Made by a program: the position numbers and the translations under genes
Part shown: positions 3,830 to 60,083 of the stretch, piece after piece
How the letters are laid out: each line of letters starts with the position of its first letter
How positions within the stretch are numbered: position 1 is the stretch's first letter
Notes under the pieces: generated by a model
The model's input: only the letters and a program-made list of their open reading frames with translations
Told to the model about the DNA's origin: nothing
The model's database searches: none
From: Lichina pygmaea
Lineage: Eukaryota; Ascomycota; Lichinomycetes; Lichinales; Lichinaceae
Reading direction: 5' to 3'
Length of the DNA stretch: 64,000 nucleotides
Assembly (NCBI GenBank): GCA_963422465.1
Contig: OY730175.1
Coordinates: forward strand, 2,170,001 to 2,234,000

Positions 3830-4140
3830 TAGGAACACTCAGTCTTGGGGTGTGGTCCCAGGATTGAGCAAGTACTCCCAGTCAGACAGAGATAACAGCT
3901 CGAACTTCTCTTAAGAGAAACATCTAGCATCAAGGAGATCAGGGCTCCCAGGATAAGAGAAATAGTTTAGAGCTTGCCTCTAGTGCTGGTAGAGTTGAAA
4001 AACTCTAGGAAAGCTCAGACAGGGGGTGTGGTCTCCAGCTTGAGTTAATACAGCCAGATTTCCCTAGAGTCTAGTTGGAAAAGACTGCCCAGGAAAGTAC
4101 AGTCTTGGGGAGTGGTCCCAGGATTGTGCAATTACTGCTA
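3830..4140 (+). repeat. LINE A1 5' UTR sub-repeats
   Basis: Three imperfect copies of a short unit with core GGGG(T/A)GTGGTC-CAG lie at about 3840-3880, 4020-4060 and 4098-4140 in the LINE leader. Two related units occur at about 23520-23660 (- strand) in the LINE A2 copy. Repeated leader units are known as promoter monomers in some LINEs; that role here is inference. Confidence 0.6.
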
Positions 4141-4190
4141 GGAACCAGGTGCCCCTTTGTGAACAACCCACTGTGCAGGTTACCTACCCT

Positions 4191-8830: not shown

Positions 8831-9204
8831 AAGCTTTTCCTACCAGACACTACAAGATTTCCTTTTGCTACACTTTCTAGTCACCTCCCTGTCTTCAGTT
8901 TTTATTCCTTTAAAGGTTTTCTGAAGAAGTTCACTATTAGCTGGAAGATCTGCATGGCTGTAAAGCTACAAACAGTGTAAGAATCAAATAAAAAAAAACA
9001 TCTTGACAGAAGTTCAAGTACCTGGTCAAATAGTCCGGATAGCCAATTGAAGATGCCACTGAAGAGCCTATTGAGCATCTTGATAACACCAAAGATGCCA
9101 TCTACAACTTCCATGAGAAATACCCAAGGAAACCACAGCCACGGAACTACGCCCACAAGTGGCCTGAGGCTCACAGGAGTTTGCCAGGTGAAGGAGGGGG
9201 GTAA

Positions 9205-10200: not shown

Positions 10201-10367
10201 TTTATTTTATTTTATTTTATTCTTACTCTGATTTGGCTGGTGGGCCATGCAGAACTTCTAGATACATGCTTTTTTTTCCCAGAAAACCTTTGAAGGAATA
10301 AAAACTGAGACTTGGGTAAGACTAGGGAATTATCTGGGAGAATATACAGTGTCTGGAGAAAATAAAA

Positions 10368-15082: not shown

Positions 15083-15113
15083 AGCTCTGGGTTTCCAGTA
15101 GTGATATCTTTAG

Positions 15114-17113: not shown

Positions 17114-18319
17114 TTACCCCCCTCCTTCACATAGCAAACTTCTGTGAGCCTCAGGCCACTTGTGGGCGTAGTTCTGTGACTGTAGTTTTCTTGGGTATTT
17201 CTCATGGAAGTTGTAGATGGTGTCTTTGGTGTTGTCAAGATGCTCAATAGGCTCTTCAGTAGTATCTTCAATTGGCCATCCAGACTATTTGACTAGGTAC
17301 TTGAACTTCTGTCAAGATGTTGCTAGCTTGGAGTCAAGGATTTCTTCAACCTGGAACTCTTCATCTGTGTCTTGACCAATAACAGGGCCAGGGTGTTTAT
17401 TTGATTGGCCAGGGATAGGATTAGCAGGTGTCAGATGTAGAAGGGAAACATGAAAGACAGGGTAGATCTTGAGAGTGTGTGGAAGCTCCAGATGGCAGGC
17501 ACAGCTTCCAACTATCTTCAACACCTTGAATAGTCCAATCCACTTGTTGTCAAGCTTTTTGCATGGGTGGTATGTCCTGATATTCTTGGTATTCAGCCAA
17601 ACAAGATCTCCAGTTTGATAGGACAGTGACAGGACTTGATGCAAATTGGTAGTGTGAGCTTGAGCTTCCTGGGATAGTCGGAGTTCAGCTTGCAACTGTT
17701 CCAGAATCTGCGTTATTTCTCCAGAGATTTCCATAGCATCTTGGTTACAGGCTTCACTTGTGGGTGTGATGCTGAGCTGTGGATGGAACCTTTTGTTGGC
17801 AAAGAACAGTGACATGCCAGAGGAATCAGACTGGGAGTTGTTCTGTGTGAACTCTGCCAGAGGAAGCTATTGGACCCAGTCATCTTGGAGATAGTTGATA
17901 TAGGATCTTATGTAGTGTTCAAGCTCCTGATTCTCTTGTTCTGTCTGACTATCTGTCTCTGGGTGGTGTCCTGAGGATAGTCGTAGTATGACATCAAGAT
18001 GGGCACAGAGTACTTTCCAGAATAAGCTGACAAACTGACCTTCTCTGTCTGAGACAATGCTCCTGGGTAAGCCATGGGTATAGACAACAAACTGGATGAA
18101 CATCCAGACAAGATACAAGTCTGTCATCTCAGCACATAGCACAAAGTGGTAGTTTTTTTTTTTTGATTCTTACACTGGTAGTAGCTTTACAGCCATGCAG
18201 ATCTTCTAGCTAATAGTGAACTCCTTCAGAAAACCTTTGAAGGGATAAAAACTGAAGGCAGGGTATGACTAGGGAATGTAACAAAAGAAATCTTGAAGTT
18301 TCTGGTAAGAGAAGAGAAT

Positions 18320-21300
18320 CTAGGTATTAGATTGGGAATAGTGGAGTTTGAAAGCTAGATTAAACTGGTTTAGTCTTTTCAAAGACATAAACCAGTACAA
18401 GAACTTCTGTAGTAGCTCTGGGTTTGAAATAATAGTGGTGAAGTCTTGGGGATTAAAAGAGACTTGTTGTCTTTGTCTTGAATAAAGAGAGCATGAAGAG
18501 GTGATATGTTTTGCAGTTTCTTCTGCTTGGCCACACACACATAGTGGGGTAGGGAAGTCAGGAACTCCAGCTCTGAAAAGAAAACTTGCCAGACCAATTC
18601 TTCCAGTCCTGATTTGCAGTAGCAGACTTGCCTCAGCTTTCTGTAACTCTTTGTAGAGCTTCAGATTGTTTTTGTGTGGCTTTTGACAGAAAGTCTGCCA
18701 GCCTGGATAGCTTCTTCTTTTCTTCTCTTCCCATTGGTCTTCCCACTCTTTAGTAAAGAGCTTTTGTAGTTCTTTTTTTGAACTAGCCTGGTTAGTAGTT
18801 ATTTGACTTAACCAAGTGAATTTCCACTTAGGAGAGATAGTTGAGGATTCCTTTAAAAGTTTCTTCAAGAGAGAGGCATAGCTGGAAATAGTGGAAAAGA
18901 TACTGTCAAGAAAGTATTTGAGAGGGGAGTTTTGAATAGAAGAAAGAAAACAGGCAGTGCGAAATTTAAAGTATAGGTCTAGAGGTAGAAGAAAAAGCTC
19001 ACTCTCTAATAGAAAAGAAGGAGTGGCTTTGAAGGCACCCCCAATAAGTCTTAGGCATCTGTTTTGAAATGAAACAAGAGAAGAGATATTGGAGGATTTT
19101 CTTAGAGGGTTAAACCAGATCCCCACTGCATAGCTCAGTAGAGATCTCAGTATAGCAGTGTACACCAGACGTGATGTGTGAACTGGAAAGCCCCAAGTAG
19201 AATAGGAAGTTCTAGAAAGAGAAGAGAGTGCTTTCTGTGCTTTTTGAAGAATAATCCTCTGGTGTTTGTGCCAGTGGAGCTTTGCATCTAGGTACACTCC
19301 AAGTACTCGCACTTCTTCTTTTGGTTTGAGAATCACATTCCCCAGTCTGAGCTTGAGCTGAAGATTGTCTGATCTTCTTCTGGAAAAATAAAGTATTTCA
19401 TATTTCTCAGGTGAGAAGACTATTCCATGTCTTGCAGCCCAGGATAGACATTTGTGGTGTGTGTTCTTTAACTTCAGAAGGTTACTTTTCAAGGAGTGAC
19501 CAAAAGCAAGCAGATTTGTATCATCTGCAAACCCCAGGGCAGATACACCAGAAGAGGGAGTATGCACAGTCTCATGCAATTCAGAAATGTAGAATAGAAA
19601 AAGAATAGGGGATAATGGAGAACCTTGAGGAACTCCACAATGAATAGGAATAGAATAAGACTCAGAATCATCAAAGACAAGAGTGGTAGAGCGCTTATCA
19701 CAGAAGGGGTAGATCCAGGAAGCTAGCCAGGCAGGTATTCCTTTTCTTTTCAGAATTTGCTGTAGTATCTTGGGGAGAACTCTGTCATAGGCTCCTGAGA
19801 TATCCAGTGAGAGTAGGGATGCAACCATGCCTTCCTTCCAGACTTTTTCCACCTGGGAGGTTAGAAGGAAAAGTGCTGCTTCTGTGGATCTTCCTTTCCT
19901 AAAGCCTATCTGGATATCTGGCAATAGTCCAGCTTCTTCTGCTATCTTGCTTAGTCTGGCTGCAGCAATAGCTTCCATCAGCTTGCCTGTTGTGTTTAGC
20001 AGAGCTATAGGGCACCAGGCTTTAGCTTGATTGTAGGTTCCCTTGCCAGGTTTCCTCAAGCAGACTGTTTTTGCACTCTTAAATCTTTCAGGGAAGTACT
20101 CCAGTTTCCAGCATGTTGAAGTCAGAATAGCTAGAGCTTGGCAGAACCTAGGCCCCAGAGCTCTCAGAAATCCATTTGGCAGCTTATCTCTCCCTCCTGC
20201 TGTGAAAGGTTTCTTCTTGGCCAGAATTTGCTCCACTTCTTCACATGTTTCCTCCTGGGAGAGCTGTATCTCAGAGATAGTCTGGGAGCTTTCTGAGCCT
20301 GGTTCTGGAACTAGAGCTTTTGGAAAGAACTGTTGTGAGAAGGCTTTAGTCTTTTCCTCAAAGGTTTTGGCTATTCCTTCTTGTGTTTCCAGGTCAGGAA
20401 CCAGAGGAAGATCAGGAGTCTTGTTGGCTTTGGACTTTCCCCACTTTGCAAGCTTCCAGAACTTTGAAGAGCTGGCCAGCTCATGGATTTGGTGTCTGAA
20501 AGTGTTATGTTTTCCATCTCTGACTGCCTTTTTCTTGAGCTTAGTTGCTTGCTCAAGTTCCTCTTGACTTGCTTGCCTTTTTTGCACTTTTCTTCTTACT
20601 CTTCTTTCCTCTTTAACCTTGTTTTGGATCTCTTGATTCCACCAGGGAACTGAGTGGCCAGATTGCTTCTGGAGCTGTGTGGATTTGCTTGCTATTTCTT
20701 GGAGAAAGTTGTCAAGATACTCCAAGTACTCATCCACTTCATATTTGTCTTGGAAGTGGAAAGGCAGGTGTAGCTTCTCACACTCTACTCTTGCAAGGTT
20801 TGAGTCCAGTGTTCTCCAGTTTCTTTCTGGTTTCCAGATTTTCCTTGGAGGATCCAGGTCCAGGCAGGTTAGTACAGGTCTGTGGTCAGACCCATGAAAG
20901 AACTGAAGAGCCACTTTAGAGAAAATCAGAGAGTTAGAAAGAGAAGAAGAAATAAAAGACAGATCAATAGAAGAACATGGTTTTTCAGAAAGAGATCTTG
21001 CTCTGGTAGAGGTGAAAGGTGCAATAGCTAAATCCAGATTTAAATCTTTCATTAGGTCTTGAAACTTGTTTGCAGTCTCAGAGTACAGTCTTCTTTTCTT
21101 TGACCAGTCTGGGTGGTGAAGATTTGAGTCTGTGAGAAGAATATGTTGTCCTTGTTCTTGTTTTTTTATTTTTTTTTATTTGATTCTTACACTGGTAGTA
21201 GCTTTACAGCCATGCAGATCTTCTAGCTAATAGTGAACTCCTTCAGAAAACCTTTGAAGGGATAAAAACTGAAGGCAGGGTGTGACTAGGGAATGTAACA

Positions 21301-22065
21301 AAAGGAATCTTGAAGTTTCTGGTAAGAGAAGAGAATCTAGGTATTGGATTGGGAATAGTGGAGTTTGAAAGCTAGATTAAACTGGTTTAGTCTTTTCAAA
21401 GACATAAACCAGTACAAGAACTTCTGTAGTAGCTCTGGGTTTCAAATAATAGTGGTGAAGTCTTGGGGATTAAAAGAGACTTGTTGTCTTTGTCTTGAAT
21501 AAAGAGAGCATGAAGAGGTGATATGTTTTGCAGTTTCTTCTGCTTGGCCACACACACATAGTGGGGTAGGGAAGTCAGGAACTCCAGCTCTGAAAAGAAA
21601 ACTTGCCAGACCAATTCTTCCAGTCCTGATTTGCAGTAGCAGACTTGCCTCACCTTGTTCTTGTAAAGCATTTTGGAGTAAACAGAGAAGAGCTTCTGAT
21701 GCCTCTGTGTAGTTTTCTTGACTTGATGGGGTGAAGTAGAGATTATGTACCCAAAGAGAAGTAGGAGAGTTTTCCAAGTAGATTTCAAGAGAAACAAAGT
21801 CTTTATTCCAGAAGGTAGGATGAAGAGAAGAGAGTTTCAGATTTTTATTAATAAGAAAAAGTGTTCTGCCAATCTCTGAACAGTAGAGAGGAAGAAAGAA
21901 AGAGAAAACAGTTGAAGTGCTTGTTTCTAGGTGAGGGTTTTTCCAGGGCTCTTGAAGTGCAATAATGTCCACCTCTTGGAGAGCTGAGGTTGCTAGCAGT
22001 AGCTCTTGGACTGATTGGCTTTTTTGCACATTATACTGGAGAAGTGTCAGCTTTGTGTCTTTCAT
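18320..22065 (-). pseudogene. LINE A2 ORF2 (endonuclease-RT), split by a nested LINE
   Basis: The ORF2 start at 22065 overlaps the ORF1 stop (ATGA). The endonuclease half runs from 22065 to 21653 and the rest from 21149 down to 18320, open for about 910 codons below the break. A 5'-truncated LINE A2 (21161-21652), with an 11-bp duplication of ORF2 sequence, separates the two. Reading from the ATG, the frame passes in frame into the nested copy's ORF2 C-terminus at QNALQEQGEASLLLQ, so the present protein would be a 207-aa endonuclease fragment with a foreign tail. The RT half has PIALLNTTGKLME, GVPQGSPLSP and GFADDTN intact. Confidence 0.9.
21161..21652 (-). mobile_element. Nested 5'-truncated LINE A2 inside LINE A2 ORF2
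   Basis: This 492-bp insertion has an A-rich tail at its left end (read as ttttttta...), then the LINE A2 3' UTR and the last part of ORF2. It breaks off within ORF2 at the right. It is flanked by ccttgttcttg at 21150-21160 and 21653-21663, a clean target duplication. It is almost identical to 18170-18640 of its own host element, so it is recent and a product of the same subfamily. Confidence 0.93.
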
Positions 22066-23453
22066 GCAGACATCTCAGCATCAAAGATCTTGAAGGAGTT
22101 AGCTGGTAGCTTTCCTCCAGAGTTGGCTGATCTTGAAGAAAGAATTTGCACTTCTGGGAGTGCACCTCTGAGTCTCTCTGAGCTTCTGCTTGGCTCAGCT
22201 GTTTTATGTTTTTTCCCCCCTGGTAGAGACTGAGAGAGAGGGAAAGACATAACTGGGGGGGGTTGTAGAGCTGGAACAGAGGTAGCTGTTGGGATCTCAT
22301 ATTTTCCTGGGCGTGTGTTCCATGCTTCTCTTGCCTTCTTGGCTGCTTCCTGGCGTACTGGACAGACACTGGCCCAGGCTGGGTGAGCTCCTCTGCAGTT
22401 GCAGTATTTTGGCTTGAGAAGCTGTTCAGGAACTTGGCAGGCTCTCCTTTCATGCTGGCCTCCACAGGCACCACACACAGCTTTGTTCTTGCAGAAGCGT
22501 GCTTGGTGCCCATAGCCAAAGCACTTGAAACATTGTGCAATAACTGTGTCTGCCAGAAAAGGTTCTGCTTCATGCATCCTGTGCCCCAGCACTAGCCCAC
22601 TCTCAATCAAAAGATTGGCTTGTTCAGGGGTAGCCAGATCCAGGTGGAGAGAGGTAACTGGCTTCTTTTGAGCTATAGTCTTCTTAGACCAGTAGGCTCT
22701 CAGGATGGTGATTTGCTTGCTCAGAGATAGGTTGCTGTTCTGGATTATCTGGCAGGTTTTCTCCAGGTCTTCAGGTTGGATATCTTCTGTTCTGACTCCA
22801 TGGATCAGAACTGGAAATCTCTTGGGCTGGATGGTTGCTTCCTTTGTGAAGATAGCTGATACCCAGGCAGGGTTTTTCTCTAGGAAGACTTTAGTCTCTT
22901 GGCTTTCTGTGTTAATAAGGATATCCCCTGAAGGAAGTTTCCTTACTGCTCTGACCTGCTTGTTGTAGGAGCTGGGTAGTCTGTCTTGAAGAGCCTGGAA
23001 AAGCTGGATGTGAGTTCTATTAGCTATGTCAGGTGGCTGGATACCAGGATGTACAAGAACTTCTTTGAGAATTCTTGCAGGTAGAGGGATTTGTGCTGGA
23101 ATAGATTTTTGGACAGCCTGGGCATATGATGGCTTGGCTTCTTGTTTGTCCAGCCGCTTGTTGATATTCTCCAGCTCCTGGAAGATTCTGTTGGTGAGGC
23201 CAGTGGAGCTAGACTGGGCTTCTGTAGGGAAGGAGTTCTTTTTGATATTTTCCCAGCTTTTCAGAATGGATTCTGGGACTGGTTGAGTTTTGATCCAGGA
23301 GTCTACTAGTTTGTAGTCACTCTGGGGAGCTGGTTGGGGGGTAGGAGAGCTGGACTGGGTGCTAGCCAGACTGGGAGCTGGTTGGGAGAGTATAGCTGGT
23401 GTAGCTCTGGTGTTACTTTCTGAAAAGGTGGGTTTTTTCTTCTTGGGAGCCAT
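22062..23453 (-). CDS. LINE A2 ORF1: zinc-knuckle gag-like protein, open
   Basis: This 463-aa ORF1 starts MAPKKKKPTF. The central block contains VRKLPSGDILINTE and LDLATPEQANLLIESG, and the Cys/His knuckles are CFKCFGYGHQARFC, CGACGGQHERRAC and a third degenerate CNCRGAHPAWASVC. It is the uninterrupted counterpart of the LINE A1 ORF1 at 4191, and its start supports the start chosen there. Its stop overlaps the ORF2 start. The expected role is chaperoning and packaging of LINE RNA. Confidence 0.9.
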   Translation of the reverse strand: MAPKKKKPTFSESNTRATPAILSQPAPSLASTQSSSPTPQPAPQSDYKLVDSWIKTQPVPESILKSWENIKKNSFPTEAQSSSTGLTNRIFQELENINKRLDKQEAKPSYAQAVQKSIPAQIPLPARILKEVLVHPGIQPPDIANRTHIQLFQALQDRLPSSYNKQVRAVRKLPSGDILINTESQETKVFLEKNPAWVSAIFTKEATIQPKRFPVLIHGVRTEDIQPEDLEKTCQIIQNSNLSLSKQITILRAYWSKKTIAQKKPVTSLHLDLATPEQANLLIESGLVLGHRMHEAEPFLADTVIAQCFKCFGYGHQARFCKNKAVCGACGGQHERRACQVPEQLLKPKYCNCRGAHPAWASVCPVRQEAAKKAREAWNTRPGKYEIPTATSVPALQPPPVMSFPLSQSLPGGKKHKTAEPSRSSERLRGALPEVQILSSRSANSGGKLPANSFKIFDAEMSA

Positions 23454-26400
23454 GTTAGAGATTGTTTGGCACTGGTTGGGTGTTTCCTGTCTGCAGAGTA
23501 CTGCCAGAAAGAAGAGTCACCTGGTTTCCCAGCAGTAATAATCTAGTCCTGGGACCAATCCCCAAGACTAGACTTTCCTGGGCAGCTTTTTCCAACTAAG
23601 CTCTGGGCAAAGCTAGAAGTATTAACCTAGACTAGGGACCAGACCCCCTATCTAGACTTTCCTTGAGCCAAAGACTCTGCTAGCTCCAGAGTCAGTCAGA
23701 CTCTAACCATTCCTCTTATCCTGAGACTCTCTCTCTGGTTGTGGGTAGATTGCTGGTTGTTGAAGAAGAAGATCGTGGATTCAAGATCACAACTTTTGAC
23801 AAACAGGTGTGATTCGCAAAGGTGATGGGTTTTCACCTTAAGGTTTGGGTGGTTTCAGAGAGGAACTCGGCTGTTTTCCAGAACATATGACAAATTGTGG
23901 TGTTTGTCAAAAATGATGGTCCTTGAAGAACGTGGTTCTGGGAAGAGTTTTTGACAAAGTGGTGTTCTTTGGTAAGACAGTCAGTGATGACCCAGATGTG
24001 CTTGGCACCAGGAAAGCAGGCATCTCTTGACTTGGGCAAGTCAGTAATGAAATCCATAGCCAGATCCTGCCAATGTTGCTGAGGTACGGGAAGAGATAGC
24101 AGCTCTCCTTGGTAATCATAGGCAGGCTTTGCTCAAGAGCAGACATGACAATTCCTGATGTACTGCTGTATGATGTTCACCATCTTTGGCTAATAGTACT
24201 AACAAGACAGAAGATTGTGGGTCTTGGCAATCCTAGTGTGGCCAGCTATTGCTTGGTCATGGACTTCTTGGAACAGGTGTAGGTGTAGCTCATTGTTCTC
24301 AGGGATCCAGAGTCAGTTCTTGTAGAAGAGACAGTTATTTTCCAAGCTGCAGTCTGAGAGAGACACTTCTCAACTGTGCCTGACACTATCCCTTAGTATC
24401 TGTGACACTGTTGCTACTGGATCACCTTCAGCAAGGTTGTTATAGGCAGCTTGGATGATGTCTGAAAGAGGTGTAGCATCAGGTTCAGTGTCAACTGGTA
24501 CAGCTTCTGAACATCTCAGAATCTGGATGGGCTTGACTTGAACCTCTGAATGTGTAAGATTCTTGGGCTTAAGGACAACTTACTCCATGAAGTCTTGACA
24601 GGGATTGCTGTCTGACAGGAGGTCTTGGGAATGTCAAGTGAGGGTGTCAGCCTTGCACTGACTACCTGGATAGTAGCTGATCTTGAAATTAAAGTATGAT
24701 AAGAACTCACTCCAACAGGCTTGACAGTGGGAAGAATACTTTGACAACATGAAGTACTCCAAGTTCTTGTGATCAGAGATCACCTTGACAGGTTCTGGAG
24801 ATCCTTCAAGCTCTGCTCACTATTCTTCAAAGGCATAGACAATTGCCAGCAACTCTTTGTTATAGATCTTGTAGTTGCATTCTGCTAGTAGGTGGTGGTG
24901 TGACAAGAAGGCAACAGGGTGTAGAACTTCTTCATGGTCTGGCTGTGACAGGACAGCACCAGAGACATAGTCAGAAGTGTCAGTCTCAACAACATACTCC
25001 TTCTCCAGATCAAAGTGCTGCAGGATAGGTATAGTGCTGAATGTCTTCTTGATACTTTCAAACAAGCACTGCTCTGGAGTTTCCCACTTGAAGGCAACAT
25101 TCTTCTTGGTCAGAGCTGTGAGCAGGGATGTAAGCTTGGTAAAGTCTTTGATGAACTGGCGATAGAAGTTTACAAAGGCAATAAAGCTCTGCACTTCCTT
25201 GAGACTGGCAGGAGGCTTCCACTCCTTGATGGTGTCAGTCTTGGCTGGGTCTATGCTCACAGATCTGGGTCAGCTGTCTTCAGTGGCAGACTGAATGATA
25301 AGGCTAAGGTACTTGACTTGATGTACTTCAAAGTCGCACTTGGAGATGTCAACTTGCAGGCTTGTATCTTGTAGTTGACTGAGAACAAGCTTGACATGCT
25401 TCTGGTGTTTCTTGAGTGTCTGACTGTAGACAAGGATGTCATCCACATAGGCAGTGCCAAAGATGTCAAGGATGTCAGGTCCCAAAACATTATTGATGTA
25501 GTTCTGGAACATGCTTGGAGTATTGGCAAGACCAAAGAGCATGACAAGGTATTTGTAGAGGCCTGAGCGTGTGCAGAACACAGTCTTCCATTCTTCACCT
25601 TCCTTCATCCAGATACAGTTAAAGGCACTAACAATGTCAAGCTTGGTGTACCACACAGCTTTACAAAGCTGGTCTAACATCTCCCAGATCAGTGGTAGGG
25701 GTAACAGTTCTTGATGGTGATGGTGTTGAGTGCTCTGTAGTCTACACAGAAACACAATCCAACTTCTGGCTTCTTGACAAAAAGGACTGGTGCAGTAGCA
25801 GGTGATGAAGATGCTTGAATAAAGCCCTTGTTCAGGTTCTCTGTCAGGTACTTCTTGAGAACTTCAAGTTCTTCTCTGCTCATGCTGTACAGAGGTCCAG
25901 AGGGTGCCTGGGTTCCTGGTTCTATCTTGATCTTGTGGTCAACTCCTGGGTGTAGAGAAGGAAGCTTGTCAGCATTGTCCTTGCTGAAGATGTCCAGGAA
26001 CTTGTGGTACTGAGCAGGGAGAAGTGTGGCAGGATCCACGCGCTTCTTTGGCTTCAACGTCTGCTCAATGTCTCTCAGAGAAATACTGAACACCTGGTGA
26101 TCTGGCTTGGCAGTAAGGAGAGAAAATATGGCACTATTGATGGGGATTGGCGTGGCAGAAAGGAGCTTGGGATCCTGAGGCTTTCCAGCAGACATCTTGG
26201 CTTCAAGATCTAAAAAGATTGGATAGCTATTGTTTGACTTGAGGTATGCGGATTAGCAGTGATCTGACTTGAACATGATTAAGGTGTTTGTCTAATCAAT
26301 GTGTGGCCTGTGCTTCTGGAACCATGGCATCCCCAGAATCACATCATAGTGAAGACCAGGAGACATAAAGAGAGAGACTTCTTCCTAGTGCACGCCATGT

Positions 26401-48081: not shown

Positions 48082-48087
48082 GTAAGT

Positions 48088-48481
48088 TTTTATTTTATTT
48101 TATTTTATTTGATTCTTACACTGGTAGTAGCTTTACAGCCATGCAGATCTTCTAGCTAATAGTGAACTCCTTCAGAAAACCTTTGAAGGGATAAAAACTG
48201 AAGGCAGGGTGTGACTAGGGAATGTAACAAAAGGAATCTTGAAGTTTCTGGTAAGAGAAGAGAATCTAGGTATTGGATTGGGAATAGTGGAGTTTGAAAG
48301 CTAGATTAAACTGGTTTAGTCTTTTCAAAGACATAAACCAGTACAAGAACTTCTGTAGTAGCTCTGGGTTTGAAATAATAGTGGTGAAGTCTTGGGGATT
48401 AAAAGAGACTTGTTGTCTTTGTCTTGAATAAAGAGAGCATGAAGAGGTGATACGTTTTGCAGTTTCTTCTGCTTGGCCACA
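48088..48481 (-). mobile_element. LINE A2, 3' portion (left part of an interrupted copy)
   Basis: The A-rich tail (read as ttttattttattttatttt), 3' UTR and end of ORF2 of a LINE A2 run to 48481, where gypsy B begins. The same LINE resumes at 58851 after gypsy B. The 5-bp ccaca at 48477-48481 is repeated at 58851-58855, proving the interruption. Confidence 0.92.
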
Positions 48482-48739
48482 TGTTGCGGTCCGTACCGTA
48501 CCGTCCTATCCGAGTATAGGATTAGGGCGAGAGGCGGAAGGCGGGTTGGTTCTCGCAGGAGAGGAGTGTCAAGGAGCACGAAGGGGTTTGGTGGAACGTG
48601 GTGGTGGTGACACCTGATCAACGGCTTCGTACAAAAGGATTGTATTGAAGTAGATCTAGTTGTCTGGATCACAACATGAGTTGAAGACGATCATTCCATA
48701 AGGGAACTATCGCCGGACTATATAGTGCTCAGTTCGTGA

Positions 48740-48910
48740 GCACAGTGAGCTCTGCTCACTTTGCTCACTCGGTGAGATCGGTGAGCTCTGCTTACTTTGC
48801 TCACGGTTCATGCACGCTGCGGCGAGCTGGGTGAGCTCTGCTCACTTTGCTCACTTGTTCATGCACGCTGCAGCGAGCTGGGTGAGCTCTGCTCACTTTG
48901 CTCACTTGTT
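48740..48910. repeat. Tandem GTGAGC/GCTCAC array in gypsy B LTR
   Basis: GTGAGCTCTG recurs at 48781, 48831 and 48882 (about 51-bp period), each followed by GCTCACTTTGCTCAC, making inverted half-sites. The LTR at 60084 has four such units (60346, 60397, 60448, 60499), so copy number varies. Confidence 0.85.
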
Positions 48911-49028
48911 CGTGCATATGCATGCTGCAGCGAGCACCCCCTGGTTTGTCTCGCCAGTCACGTGACTGGTTCCCGTGTCACGCTGCCTGGTACTTCTGTC
49001 CAGTATCCTGTCTGCTGCTTTCTGTGAG

Positions 49029-49037
49029 TATATAAAG
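49029..49037 (+). promoter_or_regulatory. TATATAAAG box for the antisense frame of gypsy B
   Basis: A consensus-like TATA box faces into the element on the + strand, 69 bp before the ATG at 49106, followed by a C/T-rich tract. The equivalent box is at 60639-60647 in copy 2 and at 58817-58825 in the other LTR. Confidence 0.6.
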
Positions 49038-49105
49038 ACTGTGTTCCTCCTGGGTCATAACACTATCCTCCTCTCCATCTTTTATCATCTTGATGAAATC
49101 TGGTC

Positions 49106-49560
49106 ATGCCTCCAAAGTCATGTGCGACTGTTAGCCGAACTCAGCTTGCTGCTCAAATCTACGATCAGGGTTTTGTTTCACGTACGCCCTGCGACTTTTG
49201 TGTTCTCCGTGGTCATCCATGCTTCCAGATGTCAGGAGAAGACGATAAGTTGAAATGTGCTGCGTGCACTCAGCGTGGAAGGTCTTGTGTCTCTGTGTTC
49301 TAGGAATCTCTGAACATGTCCCGGGACAACCTCTGTGAGGATGTGGCCACTGACAAGGCAACACATGACGCACTCTTTGAACAACTTACCATAGTGCAGG
49401 CTTGTCTGTCTCAGAAGTGAAAGGTGTTGGAGAGTGCCGAGGTCCGTGCGAGGCAGAAGCTTCAGTGCTTGGTGAAAGAGATGGAGTCAGATGGCAAGGA
49501 TTTGACTTGATCAGTCATTGACATGTCTCTCCTGCAGGCCAAGCTGTTCAGTCCTACTCC
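49106..49560 (+). pseudogene. Antisense accessory frame of gypsy B with Zn(II)2Cys6-like cysteines (fossil)
   Basis: Between the chromodomain end of pol and the 3' LTR lies a frame on the strand opposite to pol. It begins MPPKSCATVSRTQLAAQI and soon shows six cysteines spaced CX2CX6CX11CX2CX6C (49187-49288). This fits the fungal binuclear zinc cluster consensus CX2CX6CX5-12CX2CX6-8C, with an RG(R/H) pair beside each half. A helical-looking tail follows. A homologous frame with the same start stands at 60716 in gypsy B copy 2. Both belong to broken elements. It may be an accessory DNA- or RNA-binding protein of the retroelement; no function is shown. An alternative is a CCHC-like knuckle that matches the consensus by chance. 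Confidence 0.55.
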
Positions 49561-52500
49561 TGCCGAAACTGTCGCAGAAGAAGCTGGCAGTTTGCGAGGT
49601 TCTTGAGTGGTTCCCAGGTATTTTCCGAGTCTGGGTATCCTTTCCACTTGACGAGGTATTGCTGACTTTTCCTAGCCAGGATCTGTTCAACTTCGAACTC
49701 TTGTTCTTCTTCGGTTTGATAATGGAATGTTTCCTGCAAGGGTGTGCTCTGGTCGGCTGGTTCAATCATCAATATATGAAAGTTTGGATGGACTCTGGCA
49801 TCCCTTGGTAGTTGTATCTTGATGTTGACTGGTCCTGTTTTTTCTTCAACTGAAAATAGTCTGACCTTGATGTTGTCAAGTTTCTTTGTTTTTGGTTTCT
49901 TCGTTTTCCAATTTCTTGTGAGGAGGTAGACTTTATCCCCCTTCTTTAGCTGAGGTGCCATTTTCGATTTCTTGTCCATTTGACGTTGTATTCTTTCCGA
50001 GGCCTCTTGAAGGTAGTGCCTCATCATCATGTGTGTTTGTCGTAGGAGCTTGTCATGTTGGAGTGCTTTCTCCATGTTTGGTGAAGCTCTGCTTGGTATC
50101 CCGATATTCACATGTTGTCCAAAATTGGCAAAAAATAGTGATTCCTTTGTTGAGTCTGATCTGTGCTGGTTGATTGCCAGCTGTGCCACCGGTAATAACT
50201 GTACCCAATTGCTGTGGGTCTGGTTGATGTAATGCTGTAAGTAAGTCTCCAGAACTTGGTTTGCTCACTCCGTCTGGCCATCAGTTCGTGGGTGATAGGC
50301 TGTAGACATTTTGGGTTTTGTTCCCATGGCTGCACTGATCGTCTTCCAGTAGTTGGATGTGAAGAGTTTGTCTCTGTCTGTAATGATTGTGATTGGAACT
50401 CCGTGGTCTCTGACTAATCTGTCCAGTAAGAGGTGTCCCAATTGTTCTGCTGTGTGGGTCTCCTTGAATAGTACCACTATTAGATATTTTGTGAATCTGT
50501 CCACTATCACCATAATCAAGTTGTAGGTGATTCCTGTGACTGGGTCTTTGGACTTGGGTAGCTTTGTGATGAAGTCCATTGACACGTCTTCCCACAGGCC
50601 TCTCGGTATCATGTTCGGGTGTCCTTCTCCGTATAGCTTATGTCTTCTATGTTTGTTTTTTCTGGCATAGTAGACACTTGCTGATGTAGCTTGTGACATG
50701 TTGTCAGAGGTTAATGATATTGTTCCCTGCCTGTTGGATAAGGTCTGTAGTCTTGGAGATTTCTGGGTGACCATGTGCTGGATTATCGTAGTAGTTCCTT
50801 ATTAGTTCTTCAGTGTCTTCTGCCGTGAGCTTGTTGATCTGTGGTTGAGGTACCAGGTTTCCTTGCTGGTCCTGCTGTAAGATTGTTCCTTGGCGTTCAT
50901 CATCTTCCATGTAGTCTTTTTGTCAGCTTAGTGTGTCTACTCTCCTGTTGTCTTGTCCAGGGGTGTACAAGATCTTGAACTTATGTTGCCCTAGGAGTTC
51001 AGCCTATCTGACTTGCTGTCTGTTCAGCTTCTTGGTTGTTGTGAACATTGTCAGATTCTTGTGGTCTGTGAGAACAGTGAGTTCAGAACTGCTTTCCGTG
51101 TACACTCTCCAGTGTTCGAGTGTGTTGACAACTGCCAGTAGCTCTTTGTTATGGATATCATAGTTTTGTTCTGCTTGTGTCATTTTTCGTGAGTAGTAGG
51201 TAACTGGGTGCCACTTGCTGTCTGCCTGTTAGCATAGACATGCTCCTACAGCCTGATCTGAAGCATCTGTCTTGATTTGTGTTGGCTGGCCTATCTTGAA
51301 GTTGAGGAGAACTGGTTCCTTGGCGCAAGTGTCCTTGAGCTGTTAGAATACTTTTTGTTGTCTCTCCGTCTACCAGTACTCCATGTTCTTCTTTGTGAGT
51401 TCTGTCAGTGGTGTTGCCATCTGTGAGTAGTTCTTAATAAACTGTCAGTTGAAGTTGGCAAATCCTAGGAAGGCTTGTACTTCCTTAACTGATGTCAGTG
51501 TTGGCTATTGCTGAATCACTTTGATTTTCTCAGGGTCAATCTTGATCTCTTTGATCTCTATGATGTATCTGAGGAATTCAACTTCCGGTTTGTTGAACTT
51601 GTATTTCTTCAGGTTGAGCTTGAGCCCTACCTCTTGTAGGTATCATAGAACATCCTTCACATGTTTGGTATGTTCCTGTTGCGTGTTCGAGTAGACAAGA
51701 ATGTTGTCCAGGTAGGTGATAGCTGTTTGGTCCAGGTGTGCTCTGATGACGTTGTTGATCAATGCTTGACATGTTGCTGGTGTGTTTGTGAGTCTGAATA
51801 GCATAACCAGATACTTGTAGTGTCTGTATCAGGTTCTGAAGGCTGTCTTCCATTCTTCTCCTTCTTTCATGTGTATCAGGTTGTATGCTCCTTTCAAGTC
51901 TAGCTTGGTAAAGATTGTAGCTTGGCTGATCCTGTCTTGCAATTCATTCGCATTTGGCAACAGATATCAGTTTTTGATAGTAATATTGTTGAGTTTCCTG
52001 TAATCCACACAAAGTTGAAGACTTCTGTCTTTCTTTGGTGCAAATAGTATTGGGTATCCTACTGGTGATTGAGATTCTTGAATGAAACCTTTTTTCAGGT
52101 TTTCCTCCAGATACTCGCAAAGTACTTGGAGCTCTTTCTCTGATAACTGGTAAATTAGTCCAAATTCTGGCTCTGTCTCTGGTTGCAACTTGATCTCATG
52201 ATCCTAAGGTTAGTGCTTAGGCAATACTGCTGTCATTGTCTCTTCCTGAAAGAGGTTATCATACTCAGGTCAGTACTCTTCAGGGATCTCCAGAGGGTTA
52301 ACAACTTCCTCTCTCTTCATCTCTGACTGTTTGGCCACCTGGTTCCAGGGTATACCTGTCGAGGCAGACCTCTTCTCTTGAGAGTTGTCCTTTCTGTCAG
52401 TGAGGTTCCACTGAGGATTCCTTCCCTCATCTGTCCACACTTTCTATGGCTGGTAACAGGTCTGAGCTGTGTTGTTAGTGCAGTTCCTAAACATGAGTAC

Positions 52501-54404
52501 TCCTGTCCTCCAGTTAACAACTGGGTTGTGCTTCTTTAGCCAAGGCATCCCCAAATAGATATCCTGAGTGGCTAACTTGACAATATCAAGGTGGATCCTT
52601 TCAGCATGGTGTCTGGTAACCATTTCCATTGGCTGTGTCTCATGGCAGACTAGCTCTGTCTGTCTATTTGCTATCGCGAGCTGATAGGGCTACTGCTTGC
52701 ATCTTCTTCCAGTGCTGAGGGTATCGTAAAGTTGTCTTGAAATATAGTTCCCACTGGCTCCAGAGTCAACAAGTGCAAATGTCTGTACTGGTGTTTTGGC
52801 GTGTAGTGACACAGGTAATCACAGGTACTTTGTGTTGCTAGGGGTCATGTTGTTGAGCTCCTGATGTTGCCCCTTGACAAGGGAGTTCAGTCTTTTCCTG
52901 ATTGAAGTATCTTTCCACTGACTGGGCAATAGGTCCAGCTATTCCCATCAGTTCTGAGGAATCTGTTCATGAATTTGTCTTGCTGATGCTTGTCACATCC
53001 AGGCTTGAGGCAGTACTGCCAATTGTTGACGTAGCAGTTGTGGTTGTTGCCTTGCTGTAGGAATATGAGGTGTTTGTGCTAATCATGTGTGTGCCCGGGG
53101 AATGCAGTGTGTTGGTGTTTGTCCCAAAGATAGATCTCACACATATCCTTCTCGCAATTGACCCAATGCTTGTGGTAGGTGGTGTGGTAGGGTGAATGTC
53201 CTCTATACCTTCGTAGTTGTTCATGGTAGGTGTAGTAGTGCTTTGTGCAAAACCTCCACTGTAGTTCACTGTGCCGTAGATTTTGTGGGTACATGCTGTA
53301 AGTATAGCTTCCTTGTGGTATTTCTTCTTTGATAGACACGGGTTTGTCTTGGTCTCTATCAGAGGTGGTTAAGAGCTCCTGTCCCTTGTCCTGACCTGTC
53401 TGTTCTGGTAGGTTCTTGCCTCCTGATGTTGCCAGTTGGTGGGCTGCTTCCAATGTCTGATTGTAGTTGTTCTATTGTTTGAGGGATAGCTGAGCCTCTC
53501 CTGGTGAGTCCTCTGGCTTGATGACATTCCAGTCTCTGTCAAGTGTATTAAGTTGCTGTCAGTGCACCTTGTTCTTTGAACAACAGTCTTTCACTATGTG
53601 GCCTAGCTTGCCACAGGTATAGCACTTCAGTGCTTTCCCTTTTTTGTTGTTCCTTCCCTTTGTGAACCTTCCCTTGTGGTGGACTGCATCCAGTTCCATG
53701 GGTGTATAGCCATATAGGTTATGTGGTGGTGCCTTGTTAGACAGCTTGTAGTGGTTGCTCACATGCCATGCGGGGTGGCTGTATCCCCTGTTGTGGTGTT
53801 TCTCCATTGCTTGCTTGAATAGTTTGTTATTGATGTTGATTGCTTGTGCGATGAGTTTGTCCAGTGTGTTGACCACTCATCCGTCAAAGGTGATTTCATC
53901 CTTCATGTTTTCCTTGAGTCCATGTCAGTACATGACTATCAGGGTGTTGTCGTCCCAGTCAGTCAGTACTGAGTATTGTTTGAACTGCGTGGTGTACTCT
54001 GCAGCTGAGTGTTGTTGTTTGATGTGCTGGATCATTCGTATAGCCACTTTGTCTTTGTTAGATAGTCCAAGGATTCTTTTGATCTTGTCCTTGAATTACA
54101 TCTATTTTGTTATCCATTCTGTTATGCTGTTGTGGTCTCTGTTTCCTGAGAGATGTTTGTTGACGTAGGACTTGATCCATCAATAAGCATTACCTCTCAT
54201 GTAAGTGGTTGCAAAGAGGGGCCACTTTTCCTTAGGCAGCTTTGTCTCTGGTTGGAATTAAAAGTAGACTTGGAGTTGCATAAGCCAGTCATCAACCTTG
54301 TTTCTTTCACTGTAGAACAGGTCTGGCTTGGCAATGCTAATCTTTCTATCTGGGAAGTTGGGGTTGGTTACTTCTGAGGTACTCATCCTTGAGGGTCTTT
54401 AAAG

Positions 54405-54646
54405 TGTTGCAGTCTGTACTGTACTGTCCTATCCGAGTATGGGATTAGGGTGAGAGATGGAAGGTGGGTTGGTTCTCGCAGGAGAGAAGTGTCAAGGAGC
54501 ACAAAGGGGTTTGGTGGAACGTGGTGGTGGTGACACCTGATCAACAGCTTCGTACAAAAGGATTGTATTGAAGTAGATCTAGTTGTCTGGATCACAACAT
54601 GAGTTGAAGACGATTATTCCATAAGGGAACTATCGCCAGACTATAT
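54405..54646 (-). repeat. Gypsy B copy 1, 5' LTR, left part
   Basis: The LTR portion starts tgttgcag and runs to the ccagactatat target sequence, where the LINE chimera entered. It continues at 58613. Confidence 0.85.
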
Positions 54647-57480
54647 TTTTTTTTTGATTTGATTCTTACACTGTTTGTAGCTTTACAGCCATGCAGATCT
54701 TCCAGCTAATAGTGAACTTCTTCAGAAAACCTTTAAAGGAATGAAAACTGAAGACAGGGAGGTGACTAGAAAGTGTAGCAAAAGGAAATCTTGTAGTGTC
54801 TGGTAGGAAAAGCTTCTAGATGTTGGAGTGTGAATAGTGAAGTTTGAAAGCCAGATTAAATTGGTTTAGTCTTTTCAAAGACATAAACCAGTACAGAAAC
54901 TTCTGTAGAAGCTCTGGGTTTGAAATAATAGTAGTGAAATCTTGGGGGTTAAAGAGAGCATGTTGTCTTTGACTTGAGTAGAGAGAGCATGAAGAGGTGA
55001 TATGCTTTACTGTCTCTTCTGCTTGACCACACATGCATAGGGGGGTAGGAAAGTCAGGGACTCCAGCTCTGAAAAGAAAACTTGCTAGACCAATTCTCCC
55101 AGTTCTGGTTTGCAGTAGTAGACTTGCCTCAGCTTTCTGTAGCTCTTTGTAGAGCTTTAGGTTGTTGTAGTGAGGTTTTTGGCAAAACACCTGCCATCCA
55201 GCATAGCCTTTTCTTTTCTTCTCCTCCCATTGGTTTTCCCACTCTTTAGTAAAGAGTATTTGTAGTTCTTTCTTTGAACTAGCCTGGTTAGTAGTTATTT
55301 GACTTAACCAAGTGAACTTCCAATTAGGAGAGATAGTTGAGCATTTCTTTAAAGGTTTCCTCAGTGAAGAAGCATAGGAAGAAATAGTAGAAAAGGTACT
55401 GTCAAGAAAGTCTTTCAGAGAGGAGGTTTGGATAGAAGATAGAAAACAAGCTGTGTGAAATTTAAAATAGAGATCTAGAGGTAAAAGAAAAAGCTCACTC
55501 TCTAATAGAAAAGAAGGAGTGGCTTTGAAAGCACCCCCAATAAGTCTCAGACATTTGTTTTGGAATATGATAAGAGAGGAAATATTAGAGGATTTTCTGA
55601 GTGGGTTGAACCAAATTCCCACTGCATAGCTCAGTACAGATCTGAGTATTGCAGTGTACACAAGGCGTGCTGTGAGAACTGGAAAGCCCCAGGTGGAGTA
55701 AGAGGTTCTAGAAAGAGAAGATAGTGCTTTTTGTGCTTTTTGAAGAATAATTCTCTGGTGTTTGTGCCAGTGGAGTTTGGCATCCAGGTACACTCCCAAT
55801 ACTCGCACTTCTTCTTTTGGTTTTAGAATCACATTCCCAAGTCTAAGCTTGAGCTGCAGATTGTCTGATCTTCTTCTGGAAAAATGAAGTATTTCATATT
55901 TCTCAGGAGAGAAGACCATTCCATGTCTTGCAGCCCAAGATAGACATTTAAGATGTGTATTCTTCAACTTCAGAAGGTTGCTTTTAAGAGTGTCCAAATG
56001 CAAGCAGATTTGTATCATCTGCAAATCCCAGAGCAGAAACACCAGTAGTAGGAGAATGTACAGTCTCATGAAGTTCAGAAATATAGAATAGAAAAAGAAT
56101 AGGAGACAAAGGGGAACCTTGGGGAACTCCACAGTGAATAGGAATAGAAGAGGACTCAGAGTCATCAAAAACTAGGGTGGTGGTACGTCTGGTACAGAAA
56201 GAGAAGATCCAAGAAGTTAGCCAGAGAGGGATTCCTTTTCTCTCCAGAATCTTTTGAAGAATCTCTGGAAGAACTCTGTCATATGCTCCTGAGATGTCCA
56301 GAGAAAGTAGAGATGCAACCATGCCTTCTTTCCAGACTTTTTCCACTTGGGAAGTTAGAAGGAAAAGTGCTGATTCAGTTGATCTGCCTTTCCTGAACCC
56401 CATCTGGATTTCTGGCAAGAGTTTAGCCTCTTCTGCTACCTTGCTTAGTCTGGCTGCTGTAATAGCTTCCATCAGCTTGCCAGTTGTGTTTAGCAGAGCT
56501 ATAGGGTGCCAGGCTTTAGCTTGGTTATAGATTCCCTTGCCAGGTTTTCTTAGACAGACTGTTTTTGCATTCTTGAATTTCTCTGGAAAGTATTCCAGTC
56601 TCCAGCATGTTGATGTGAGAACAGCTATAGCTTGGCAGAACTTGGGACCCAGAGCTTTCAGAAATCCATTTGGCAGCTTGTCTTTTCCTCCTGCTGTAAA
56701 AGGTTTCTTCTTGTTCAGAATTTGCTCCACTTCTTCAGTGGTAACCTCCTGAGAAAGCTGGATCTCTGGGGTACTCTGGTGACTTTCTGTACTTGGTTCT
56801 GGAACACGTGCTTCTGGAAAGAATTGAGCTGAGAAAGATTTTGTCTTCTCCTCAAAGCTTTTGGCTAGTCCTTCTTGAGTCTCCAGATCAGGGACCAGAG
56901 GAAGATCAGGGGTCTTGTTAGCTTTTGATTTTCCCCACTTTGCAAGCTTCCAGAATTTTGAGGAACTGGCTAGCTCATGAACTTGTTTTCTGAAGGTGTT
57001 CTGTTTGCCTTCTCTGACAGCTTTCTTCTTGAGCTTAGTTGCTTCTTCTAGCTCTTCTTGGCTTGCCTGTTCTCTGAGCACTTGTCTTCTTATTCTTCTT
57101 TCCTGCTTAACTTTAGTTTGGATCTCTTGGTTCCACCAGGGGACTGAGTGGCTAGATTGCTTCTGGAGTTCTGTGCATCTGTCTGCTATTTCTTGGAGAA
57201 AGTGGTTAAGATATTCCAAGTACTCATCCACTTCATGTTTATCTTGAAAGTGGAAGGGCAGCTGCAAATTATTACACTCTTGTTTTGCCAGGTTTGTGTC
57301 CAGTGTTTTCCAGTTCCTTTCTGGCTTCCAGGTTTTTCTTGGTGAGTCCAGGTCCAGGCTAGTTAGCACAGGTCTGTGGTCAGACCCATGAAAGAACTGC
57401 AAAGCAATTTTAGAAAAGATTAGAGAGTTAGAAAGAGAAGAAGATATAAAGGAAAGATCAATAGGTGAACAGGGTTTGTG
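54647..57480 (-). mobile_element. LINE A1, 5'-truncated, part of a chimeric insertion
   Basis: The poly-A tail is at the left (read as poly-T 54646-54656), then a 3' UTR matching the LINE A1 at 8831-8997 and ORF2 as far as PCSPIDLSFIS in the endonuclease. There it stops and the 1.1-kb module starts. The target duplication (c g/a) ccagactatat at 54634-54646 and 58600-58612 encloses LINE plus module together. ORF2 has a 2-bp deletion near 55990 relative to LINE A1 at 7651-7660, splitting it into open stretches 56003-57555 and 54816-56000. Confidence 0.92.
54816..57480 (-). pseudogene. LINE A1 ORF2, 5'-truncated and frameshifted
   Basis: The RT (GFRKGRSTESA, GVPQGSPLSP, GFADDTN) and the C-terminal Cys/His motif (CMCGQAEETVKHITSSC) are present. 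The first two thirds of the endonuclease are missing. A 2-bp deletion just after GFADDTNLLAFGH shifts the frame. At its 5' end the frame runs on into the 1.1-kb module and finds an ATG there (57555), giving 25 module-coded residues before the LINE part; I regard this as chance. Confidence 0.9.
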
Positions 57481-58599
57481 GGCCACAGTCGTACTATGCC
57501 AGAACATAGTGTAGAGTTGGCACCCCCCCACAGGGTCTCTACCACGCTTTCCCACAGTCCCGAGGTCTCTTGCACTCCGCCGTACGTGCTCACCCCTGGG
57601 ATCCTGCTTCGGAGCGCTGGGTCACCAGCCCAGAGCCCACGCTCCAACTGTAGTTTGCTCCCTGAGCTTGTCGTTTGCAGCCTAAGCCTGCACTCCGTAC
57701 GAACCGGCATGCACATCCGTCCTCTCGGGCCATATAGACAGTCTCGTAGTAGGCCCAGGCCCTACCTCCGTCACTGCCATTATATGCCACGCCTCGCAGT
57801 TGTTAACTGTTTCGTGTTACCTTCGCAGATCTCTCGTACAAAGGCCGACCATGCCTCGCAGGCCTTACGGACCCTGCAGGCCGTGCCAGCACCTGCAGGG
57901 CCGCCTTTCCAGCCCACTAACCAAGTAGGGAGGAGTTCTCCTTGGTCCGCTGTCGCCTGTGGGGCCCTGGTTGCACCTGTTGGCCCACTGGATAACCCAG
58001 TCCTCTGGCCCCAGATTGTGGATTGTACGAAGAGACTTCGTGGCAAGGCCTTAGGCAAAACCATCAAGCCAGCACTTTGGCTATCACACGGCCCTTAGGC
58101 ACTGGAGCGGCGACATCTCCTCGTACGACCACTCTCCTTCTTTAACAGGTGGTCCGCGTTCGATTAACAACGCTGTGGTGCCAAGGCCACTCCCCCCCTA
58201 GCAGATCCTCACACGTTAGCTGGAGACTCTGCTAGGAGGGTGACGTGATGAGAACTCCTCTCGACTACTCCAGAGGTGCCCTATCAGACGCCTAGACTTC
58301 ACATCCACCAGCTGTGGGGCTGGCTTCAGGCCGTAGCGTACACGGTAGTCGTCTGTCAGGTGGTTTTCATCTCCCAAGCTTGGTCGCAGTCCTCTGTTCT
58401 GCTGTAGCTGTTTCACAGGGGTGTCCAGGGTGCCTGCGCGACACCTCCGGTGGCCTGTCGCTCCGCAACACCAGCAGCTCGACCGGTGACTTGATTAGCT
58501 CTCGGTGCAGCGACTACGAGCAGCCTGGGAAGCCGCCCGCCATCGACTGCCCCGAGGTTCCCAGCCTGCACCACGTGGAGGTTCGAGTCATTGCAGGCC
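57481..58599 (-). mobile_element. 1.1-kb GC-rich chimeric module, copy 2 (WEIRD-like)
   Basis: This module is 1,119 bp, identical in length and ends to the copy at 15114-16232 and about 95% identical by eye. Most differences are C/T or G/A at CpG, with this copy keeping CG more often. It lies between the LINE's broken 5' end and the right target duplication, so it entered with the LINE. On the minus strand, a frame ending at 58216 contains CWCCGATGHRRC followed by a stretch conserved in both copies. On the + strand 57478-58098 is open. No known domain is recognised. Confidence 0.78.
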
Positions 58600-58612
58600 C
58601 ACCAGACTATAT

Positions 58613-58850
58613 AGTGCTCAGTTTGTGAGCACAGTGAGTTCTGCTCACTTTGCTCACTTGGTGAGATCAGTGAGCTCTGCTCACTTTGCTCACTTGTTCA
58701 TGCATATGCATGCTGCAGCGAGCACCCCCTGGTTTGTCTCGCCGGTCACGTGACTGGTTCCCGTGTCACACTGCCTGGTACTTCTGTCCAGTATCCTGTC
58801 TGCTGCTTTCTGTAAGTATATAAAGACTGTGTTCCTCCTGGGTTGTAACA
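58613..58850 (-). repeat. Gypsy B copy 1, 5' LTR, right part
   Basis: This is the remainder of the LTR split by the LINE chimera. It carries GTGAGC repeats and the TATATAAAG box (58817-58825), and ends at the 5-bp ccaca duplication. Confidence 0.85.
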
Positions 58851-60083
58851 CCACACACACATAGTGGGGTAGGGAAGTCAGGAACTCCAGCTCTGAAAAG
58901 AAAACTTGCCAGACCAATTCTTCCAGTCCTGATTTGCAGTAGCAGACTTGCCTCAGCTTTCTGTAACTTTTTGTAGAGCTTCAGATTGTTTTTGTGTGGT
59001 TTTTGACAGAAAGTCTGCCAGCCTGGATAGCTTCTTCTTTTCTTCTCTTCCTATTGGTCTTCCCACTTTTTAGTAAAAAGCTTTTGTAGTTCTTTCTTTG
59101 AACTAGCCTGGTTAGTAGTTATTTGACTTAACCAAGTGAATTTCCACTTAGGAGAGATAGTTGAGGATTCCTTTAAAGGTTTCTTCAAGAGAGAGGTATA
59201 GCTGGAAATAGTGGAAAAGATACTGTCAAGAAAGTATTTGAGAGGGGAGTTTTGAATAGAAGAAAGAAAACAGGCAGTGCGAAATTTAAAGTATAGGTCT
59301 AGAGGTAGAAGAAAAAGCTCACTCTCTAATAGAAAAGAAGAAGTGGCTTTGAAGACACCCCCAATAAGTCTTAGGTATCTGTTTTGAAATAAAACAAGAG
59401 AAGAGATATTGGAGGATTTTCTTAGAGGGTTAAACCAGATCCCCACTGCATAGCTCAGTAGAGATCTCAGTATAGCGTGTACACCAGACGTGATGTGTGA
59501 ACTGGAAAGCCCCAAGTAGAATAGGAAGTTCTAGAAAGAGAAGAGAGTGCTTTCTGTGCTTTTTGAAGAATAATCCTCTGGTGTTTGTGCCAGTGGAGCT
59601 TTGCATCTAGGTACACTCCAAGTACTCGCACTTCTTCTTTTGGTTTGAGAATCACATTCCCCAGTCTGAGCTTGAGCTGAAGATTGTCTGATCTTCTTCT
59701 GGAAAAATAAAGTATTTCATATTTCTCAGAAGAGAAGACTATTCCATGTCTTGCAGCCCATGATAGACATTTGAGGTGTGTGTTCTTTAACTTCAGAAGG
59801 TTACTTTTCAAGGAGTGACCAAAAGCAAGCAGATTTGTATCATCTGCAAACCCCAGAGCAGATACACCAGAAGAGGGAGTATGCACAGTCTCATGCAATT
59901 CAGAAATGTAGAATAGAAAAAGAATAGAGGATAATGGAGAACCTTGAGAAACTCCACAATGAATAGGAATTGAACAAGACTCAGAATCATCAAAGACAAG
60001 AGTGGTAGAGCGCTTATCACAGAAGGAGTAGATCCAGGAAGCTAGCCAGGCAGGTATTCCTTTTCTTTTCAGAATTTGCTGTA
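58851..60083 (-). mobile_element. LINE A2, middle portion of the copy interrupted by two gypsy B elements
   Basis: This continues the LINE begun at 48088: ORF2 C-terminal and RT regions (with GFADDTN near 59840), homologous to 18540-19770. The open stretches 59051-59515 and 59467-59898 are offset by a 1-bp deletion near 59476. A second gypsy B LTR interrupts it at 60084. The rest would lie past the end of the window. Confidence 0.9.

Follow-up and report, generated by a model that had tools for sequence, protein, structure and literature searches.

The stretch analysed here, referred to as the window, comprises 64,000 nucleotides of the Lichina pygmaea genome (contig OY730175.1, positions 2,170,001 to 2,234,000 of the forward strand) and contains an Spt6-like gene in a GC-rich stretch, located between AT-rich blocks of nested retroelements. 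The element under study occupies positions 54647-58599 and constitutes a single insertion, in which a 5'-truncated long interspersed nuclear element (LINE), termed LINE A1, and a 1119-bp module are enclosed by one 13-bp target duplication. A second copy of the module is joined to a different element, LINE B, elsewhere in the window, and the 5' end of the module is a candidate self-cleaving ribozyme of the hepatitis delta virus (HDV) type.

The left (CGCCAGACTATAT, 54634-54646) and right (CACCAGACTATAT, 58600-58612) target duplications, both on the plus strand, are identical at 12 of 13 positions, the sole mismatch being a CpG transition. A match of at least 12 of 13 was obtained for only 4 of 200,000 random 13-mer pairs drawn from the window. 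The insertion lies in the second long terminal repeat (LTR) of a gypsy B element that extends from 48482 to 58850, with CCACA on both sides. The first LTR of the same element (48482-49062) displays the empty target site (CGCCGGACTATAT, 48711-48723, plus strand). When one duplication was deleted, the joined flanks aligned without gaps at the joint to all three other LTR copies tried, namely those starting at 48482 and 60084 and, in reverse complement, the one that ends at 28563. This agrees with the original prediction, which had placed the insertion inside a gypsy B LTR that is also present in uninterrupted form. At the left of the block, the primer end TATAT adjoins T-rich sequence complementary to the LINE tail, an arrangement predicted by target-primed synthesis, and duplications of similar size (11-13 bp, one mismatch allowed) accompany three further insertions of LINE A in the window. 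The empty sister LTR, together with the one enclosing duplication, thus establishes a single integration of both parts, as had been proposed. The converse scenario, in which module and LINE, in either order, inserted independently at one place, is highly improbable: the duplication encloses both parts, none was detected between them when the module-only flanks of the 54647-58599 block were compared by eye, the empty site reveals only one break, and an identical module end is joined to a second LINE elsewhere. No point supporting two insertions was found in the analyses made, and the second module copy carries no duplication of its own.

The LTRs of the gypsy element that carries the chimera (54405-58850 versus 48482-49062) differ by 23 transitions and no transversions over 474 aligned bases, and 14 of 15 CpG losses between them fall in the LTR that received the insertion. 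The same gypsy element splits a LINE A copy at 48087-60083, and a further gypsy LTR starts at 60084; the order of events at 48087-60083 is LINE A, then gypsy, then chimera.

The LINE portion of the chimera (54647-57480, minus strand, 2834 bp) has its tail at the left and presents 99.4% identity to the copy at 6164-8998 over 2835 aligned positions. It breaks inside the endonuclease domain, at approximately residue 192 of open reading frame (ORF) 2 (domain residues 106-230), so that its description as a 5'-truncated LINE A1 is upheld. Endonuclease and reverse transcriptase domains were both identified in a full LINE A copy. At the LINE/module junction (57478-57483, minus strand) the sense sequence reads GGCCC/ACAAAC, while the intact LINE reads TTTCCC/ACAAAC, the slash marking the joint; CCC is thus common to the module end and the intact LINE A. 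The module had been said to begin exactly at the LINE break, and it does so at 57481 save for one ambiguous C (57480) that could belong to it, its 3' end being either ..GUGGCC or ..GUGGCCC. Two LINE A copies retain a 5' untranslated region (UTR), both begin with AACTCTTCCCAG a few bases from a duplication, and in neither is the module present, their 5' UTR being unrelated to it. These copies bear on a proposed origin by splicing, in which the module, serving as the first exon of a LINE transcript, was joined to the endonuclease region before the transcript was reinserted. The shared orientation of module and LINE is what such a transcript would require, but copy 2 shows no GT after the module, intact LINE A has no AG immediately before the joint, and the 5' UTR of the two LINE A copies is a different one. 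A splice origin of the chimera, to which we give practically no credence, was rejected because the splice signals are missing.

Some further properties of the LINEs were noted. The LINE A copy with a 5' UTR at 18153-23949 (minus strand) is interrupted by a 5'-truncated LINE tail fragment of ~490 nt (about 21165-21656) with the duplication ACAAGAACAAGG. The LINE A 5' UTRs (3562-4149 and 23453-23949) contain imperfect internal repeats, for example around CTTGGGGTGTGGTCCCAGGATTG, whose number seemingly differs between the two, as judged by eye. The LINE coding regions at 6164-8998 and 10205-15083 have CpG observed/expected ratios of 0.05 and 0.02, whereas the Spt6 gene reaches 1.19; the near absence of CpG suggests long exposure to CpG methylation and decay.

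Module copy 1 extends from 57481 to 58599 on the minus strand and is thus read from right to left. The second copy, which had escaped the original prediction as had the ribozyme-like 5' end, is located at 15114-16232 on the same strand. The two copies (95% identity) align over 1119 bases without insertions or deletions, have the same two ends, and differ at 56 positions, all of them transitions and 45 in CpG context. The absence of transversions was rejected as an argument by itself, the gypsy LTRs also presenting 23 transitions and none. Copy 2 is joined to LINE B (10205-15113, minus strand), which is ~67% identical to LINE A and has an open ORF1 (13628-15082) and ORF2 (10368-13631), the latter with endonuclease and reverse transcriptase domains; the module lies 31 nt upstream of ORF1. 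At both joints the module side reads GGCCC, followed by ACAAAC in LINE A or TAAAG in LINE B, and no poly(A) is found at either junction. The same module end is therefore joined to the two LINEs at different LINE positions, which suggests a separate RNA with fixed ends.

The base composition of the parts differs markedly. CpG observed/expected is 0.66 and 0.39 in module copies 1 and 2, 0.03 and 0.02 in their respective LINE partners and 1.19 in the Spt6 gene; the contrast between copy 1 and its LINE indicates that the two parts have different histories. The 31-nt leader of LINE B resembles that of LINE A2 (8 of 2000 shuffles as good) and hardly that of LINE A1 (234 of 2000). When 87 nt of module were added to the leader, its alignment with the LINE A leaders crossed the joint with many gaps and was at chance level (216 and 336 of 1000 shuffles as good). 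LINE B has likely lost the remainder of its native 5' UTR, judging from this leader comparison. These data bear on the possibility that the LINE B family ordinarily carries the module as its ribozyme-bearing 5' UTR, comparable to those of R2, R4 and L1Tc, and that copy 1 is a LINE A/LINE B chimera formed by a jump into LINE B RNA. HDV-like ribozymes are described as typical of the 5' ends of several non-LTR retrotransposons in passages of PMC3774820 and PMC8256844, and the only LINE B in the window indeed has the module directly upstream of an open ORF1. Under this explanation, however, the jump must reach LINE B RNA close to the apparent start of its own leader, the match to either LINE A leader is at chance level once module sequence is included, and the CpG ratio changes sharply from 0.39 in the module to 0.02 in LINE B. 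We regard a LINE B 5' UTR as an unlikely origin of the module, though one that retains some weight.

The border of the module opposite the LINE provides evidence of another kind. In a permissive Rfam search of the module the best match was RF00094, the HDV ribozyme, on the sense strand of copy 1 (58601-58485, 35.8 bits, E-value of 0.0037 for 1.3 kb). Copy 2 matched the same model from the same start (16234-16160, 29.0 bits), and drz-agam-1, a second HDV-like model, gave a weak match from the same first base (18.2 bits, E-value of 1.1). The first paired base of the RF00094 match of copy 1 is 58599, which is also the first base of the module. The candidate ribozyme of copy 1 thus comprises 58485-58599 on the minus strand, with +1 at 58599 and a presumed catalytic C at 58498. 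Its helices were assigned by eye from the sequence; the names of the parts and the role of the catalytic C are those of HDV ribozymes in general. P1 pairs positions 1-7 with 31-37 (seven pairs, with G-U at the predicted cleavage site), and P3 pairs 18-20 with 28-30 and presents a loop containing UCC, while the GG at 38-39 can make P1.1. P4 is formed by 44-53 and 90-99, one position being mismatched; the presumed catalytic C102 lies in GCUAA (101-105), and P2 pairs 10-14 with 109-113. The order of P1 from +1, P3, P1.1, P4 and the J4/2 catalytic C is that of the nested pseudoknot. A simple fold of the 115 nt yields P1 and P4, with a z-score of -2.56 and 2 of 200 shuffles folding as well. In copy 2 the candidate (16160-16232, minus strand) appears decayed, two P4 pairs being broken. 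A ribozyme descriptor of our own gave one match on both strands of the 64 kb, with +1 at 58599, and this match was again the only one with a 4-bp P2. In random sequence of module composition the descriptor matched 7 times in 3 Mb, or 5 times in 2 Mb with the 4-bp P2. A chance match somewhere in the window is thus no great surprise, while one at exactly 58599 would be. Taken at the level of sequence and predicted pairing, the module 5' end is a good candidate for an HDV-like self-cleaving ribozyme, with cleavage predicted exactly at its first base.

Other properties of the module were considered. An antisense open frame of ~200 codons is found in both copies (57478-58098 and 15129-15731, plus strand), but its 207-codon stretch starts one codon outside the module and accumulates 18 amino-acid changes for 28 base differences between the copies. 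No Pfam match was obtained for this frame at an E-value of 0.01, and a protein-coding module was considered unlikely given these changes, which are not protein-like. Linear folds of both module copies have a z-score of -3.4, compared with -1.6 and -1.1 for the antisense strands and -2.4 without the ribozyme part. Among 20 control strands of 1119 bases (40 shuffles each), a LINE stretch reached -3.46 and a host stretch -2.67, and structure along the whole module length is thus weakly supported by these predictions. Exact 34- and 26-base patterns common to both copies found no module match in viral contigs or prokaryote genomes, and blastn with all of copy 1 found none in plasmids or phages. A LINE B ORF2 peptide pattern occurred in 2 stretches of the viral contigs, neither of which was confirmed. 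No tRNA genes were found in the window.

The exact ends of the module in both copies, the lack of poly(A) at the junctions and the ribozyme candidate at +1 are also compatible with a self-cleaving RNA of viroid-like or retrozyme-like kind, circular or tandem, of which the module would be one unit length; one ribozyme would set both ends, and the LINEs would merely fossilise the product. Viroid-like RNAs are reported in fungi (PMC10162972), and WEIRD, the passenger of the Magnaporthe chimeras compared below, is described in passages of PMC2104539 as highly expressed with no solo gene found. The predicted circular fold, however, is branched (z-scores of -3.5 for the sense and -2.2 for the antisense strand, 60 shuffles), so that a rod-like circular RNA is not supported. 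The module antisense strand gave no ribozyme match, its two Rfam matches belonging to other families (E-values of 0.35 and 0.48). Outside CpG context, moreover, the module copies diverge at 11 of 1119 bases against 8 of 474 for the two gypsy LTRs, which points to a slowly changing, DNA-encoded source. With no positive support beyond the exact ends, a circular or tandem origin appears improbable.

The anatomy of copy 1 is that of the MINE elements of Magnaporthe, as the original prediction had proposed. Passages of Gogvadze et al. (2007, PMC2104539) describe 33 bipartite chimeras, of which 31 comprise a full-length ~1.1 kb WEIRD RNA and a 5'-truncated MGL LINE. Direct repeats are given there for 19 MINEs, along with one tripartite element with a 1113-nt WEIRD, and WEIRD shows substantial expression without a solo copy, its nature being left open; the accessions of three transcribed MINEs are listed as GenBank EF585235-EF585237. 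In copy 1, likewise, a full-length module precedes a co-oriented LINE that is truncated at its 5' end, a target duplication flanks the pair, and the noncoding module is of nearly equal length (1119 versus the 1113 nt of the tripartite element). The switch site is CCC*A here and GCC*A/U in the MINE consensus, and the joint of copy 1 shares a 3-nt CCC, whereas microhomology is reported to be absent from the MINE joints (PMC2104539). In contrast to MINE, a ribozyme candidate starts the passenger, and one of its two LINE partners, LINE B, keeps both ORFs open. Identity of the module with WEIRD, the remaining part of the proposed equivalence, is not supported by the primer sequences. Against the whole module, the primers MNR2, WEIRD125 and WEIRD967, given in passages of PMC3978060, matched no better than shuffles (at best 268 of 1000 as good, first scoring scheme). 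In their expected places, the two WEIRD primers were equalled by 1053 and 241 of 5000 shuffles and by 1639 and 577 of 5000 host 20-mers. MNR2 resembles LINE A antisense at 7643-7659 (16 of 18 columns identical, one gap, one mismatch), a match equalled by 15 of 3000 shuffles and by 2 of 3000 host 20-mers. As several targets were tried, this likeness is only a lead; it would be consistent with a primer located in the MGL portion and with a relationship of LINE A to MGL.

Two further groups of elements display partial similarities, according to passages of the respective reports. The U6 small nuclear RNA (snRNA)/LINE chimeras of vertebrates (PMC4476161) likewise reflect template switching by a LINE onto a small structured RNA at its 3' end, with several LINE clades carrying the same passenger, although the passenger here is a 1.1-kb RNA and not an snRNA. 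R2, R4/Dong, Baggins and L1Tc (PMC3774820) share the nested-pseudoknot candidate with predicted cleavage at the exact 5' border of the insert, but here the candidate lies on a passenger of two LINEs and is absent from both LINE A copies that retain a 5' UTR. Among fungal HDV ribozyme variants, of which 230 are recorded in 26 species (PMC5640933), the HDV architecture is shared and so, perhaps, is one additional nucleotide separating P2 from P3, subject to the way P2 is delimited; the cleavage-site pair is G-U here and typically C-G there.

Taken together, these observations are probably best explained by a LINE template jump to a separate noncoding RNA, whose 5' end would be set by HDV-like self-cleavage and which would have been captured again by LINE B. 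A switch of the reverse transcriptase from the LINE template to another RNA at its 3' end, already put forward in the original prediction, remains the best reading of copy 1 and agrees with the published MINE anatomy. In one LINE integration by target-primed reverse transcription, the reverse transcriptase would start on LINE A RNA and leave it within the endonuclease region. Its next template would be a separate noncoding RNA of 1.1 kb, entered by a jump at the 3' end, the three shared C's perhaps helping at the joint of copy 1. The passenger RNA would be copied to its 5' end, where the enzyme would run off at an end made by self-cleavage of the ribozyme in the first ~115 nt. The 3' end of the passenger would be fixed as well. 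The same RNA would have been picked up a second time by LINE B, and its source is presumed to be a separate, DNA-encoded gene, richer in CpG than the LINEs.

Several points weigh against this explanation. Both RF00094 scores fall below the gathering score of 50, at which no Rfam match is obtained, and for the whole window copies 1 and 2 have E-values of 0.18 and 3.5, respectively. Position 10, in CpG context, differs between the copies (U in copy 1, C in the other); the source base was probably C, which would leave four P2 pairs. The descriptor was composed after the candidate had been seen and, in both versions, misses copy 2. The module is known from only two copies, with ends identical in both, and was found in the single LINE B of the window, a copy that has no duplication to prove its completeness, copy 2 being flanked by a LINE A fragment on the left and gypsy sequence on the right. 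The truncation of the LINE B leader rests on weak similarity. Human L1 carries a CpG-rich 5' UTR on a CpG-poor body, and the CpG contrast alone is thus no proof of a separate gene.

A passenger of MINE anatomy with a ribozyme-like 5' end raises the question whether MINE passengers begin with ribozymes. Among the literature matches listed (titles, beginnings of abstracts and passages, with few subscription papers), no publication links WEIRD or Magnaporthe to ribozymes, or fungal LINEs to HDV-like ribozymes. It is conceivable, if speculative, that the WEIRD-like passengers of fungal LINE chimeras form a class of self-cleaving RNAs. In these, a 1.1-kb RNA would be cut out with exact ends by an HDV-like ribozyme, whether from any given transcript or from circular or tandem RNA, and would spread as a parasite at the 5' end of cDNAs of several LINE families. 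If so, the abundance of WEIRD without a gene of its own would be accounted for, and ribozyme cleavage would define the end where the LINE reverse transcriptase runs off. The finding would show that LINEs of more than one family can carry a single RNA in a genome of this kind, and would connect the ribozymes at LINE 5' ends with template-jump chimeras, which the passages cited here describe separately.

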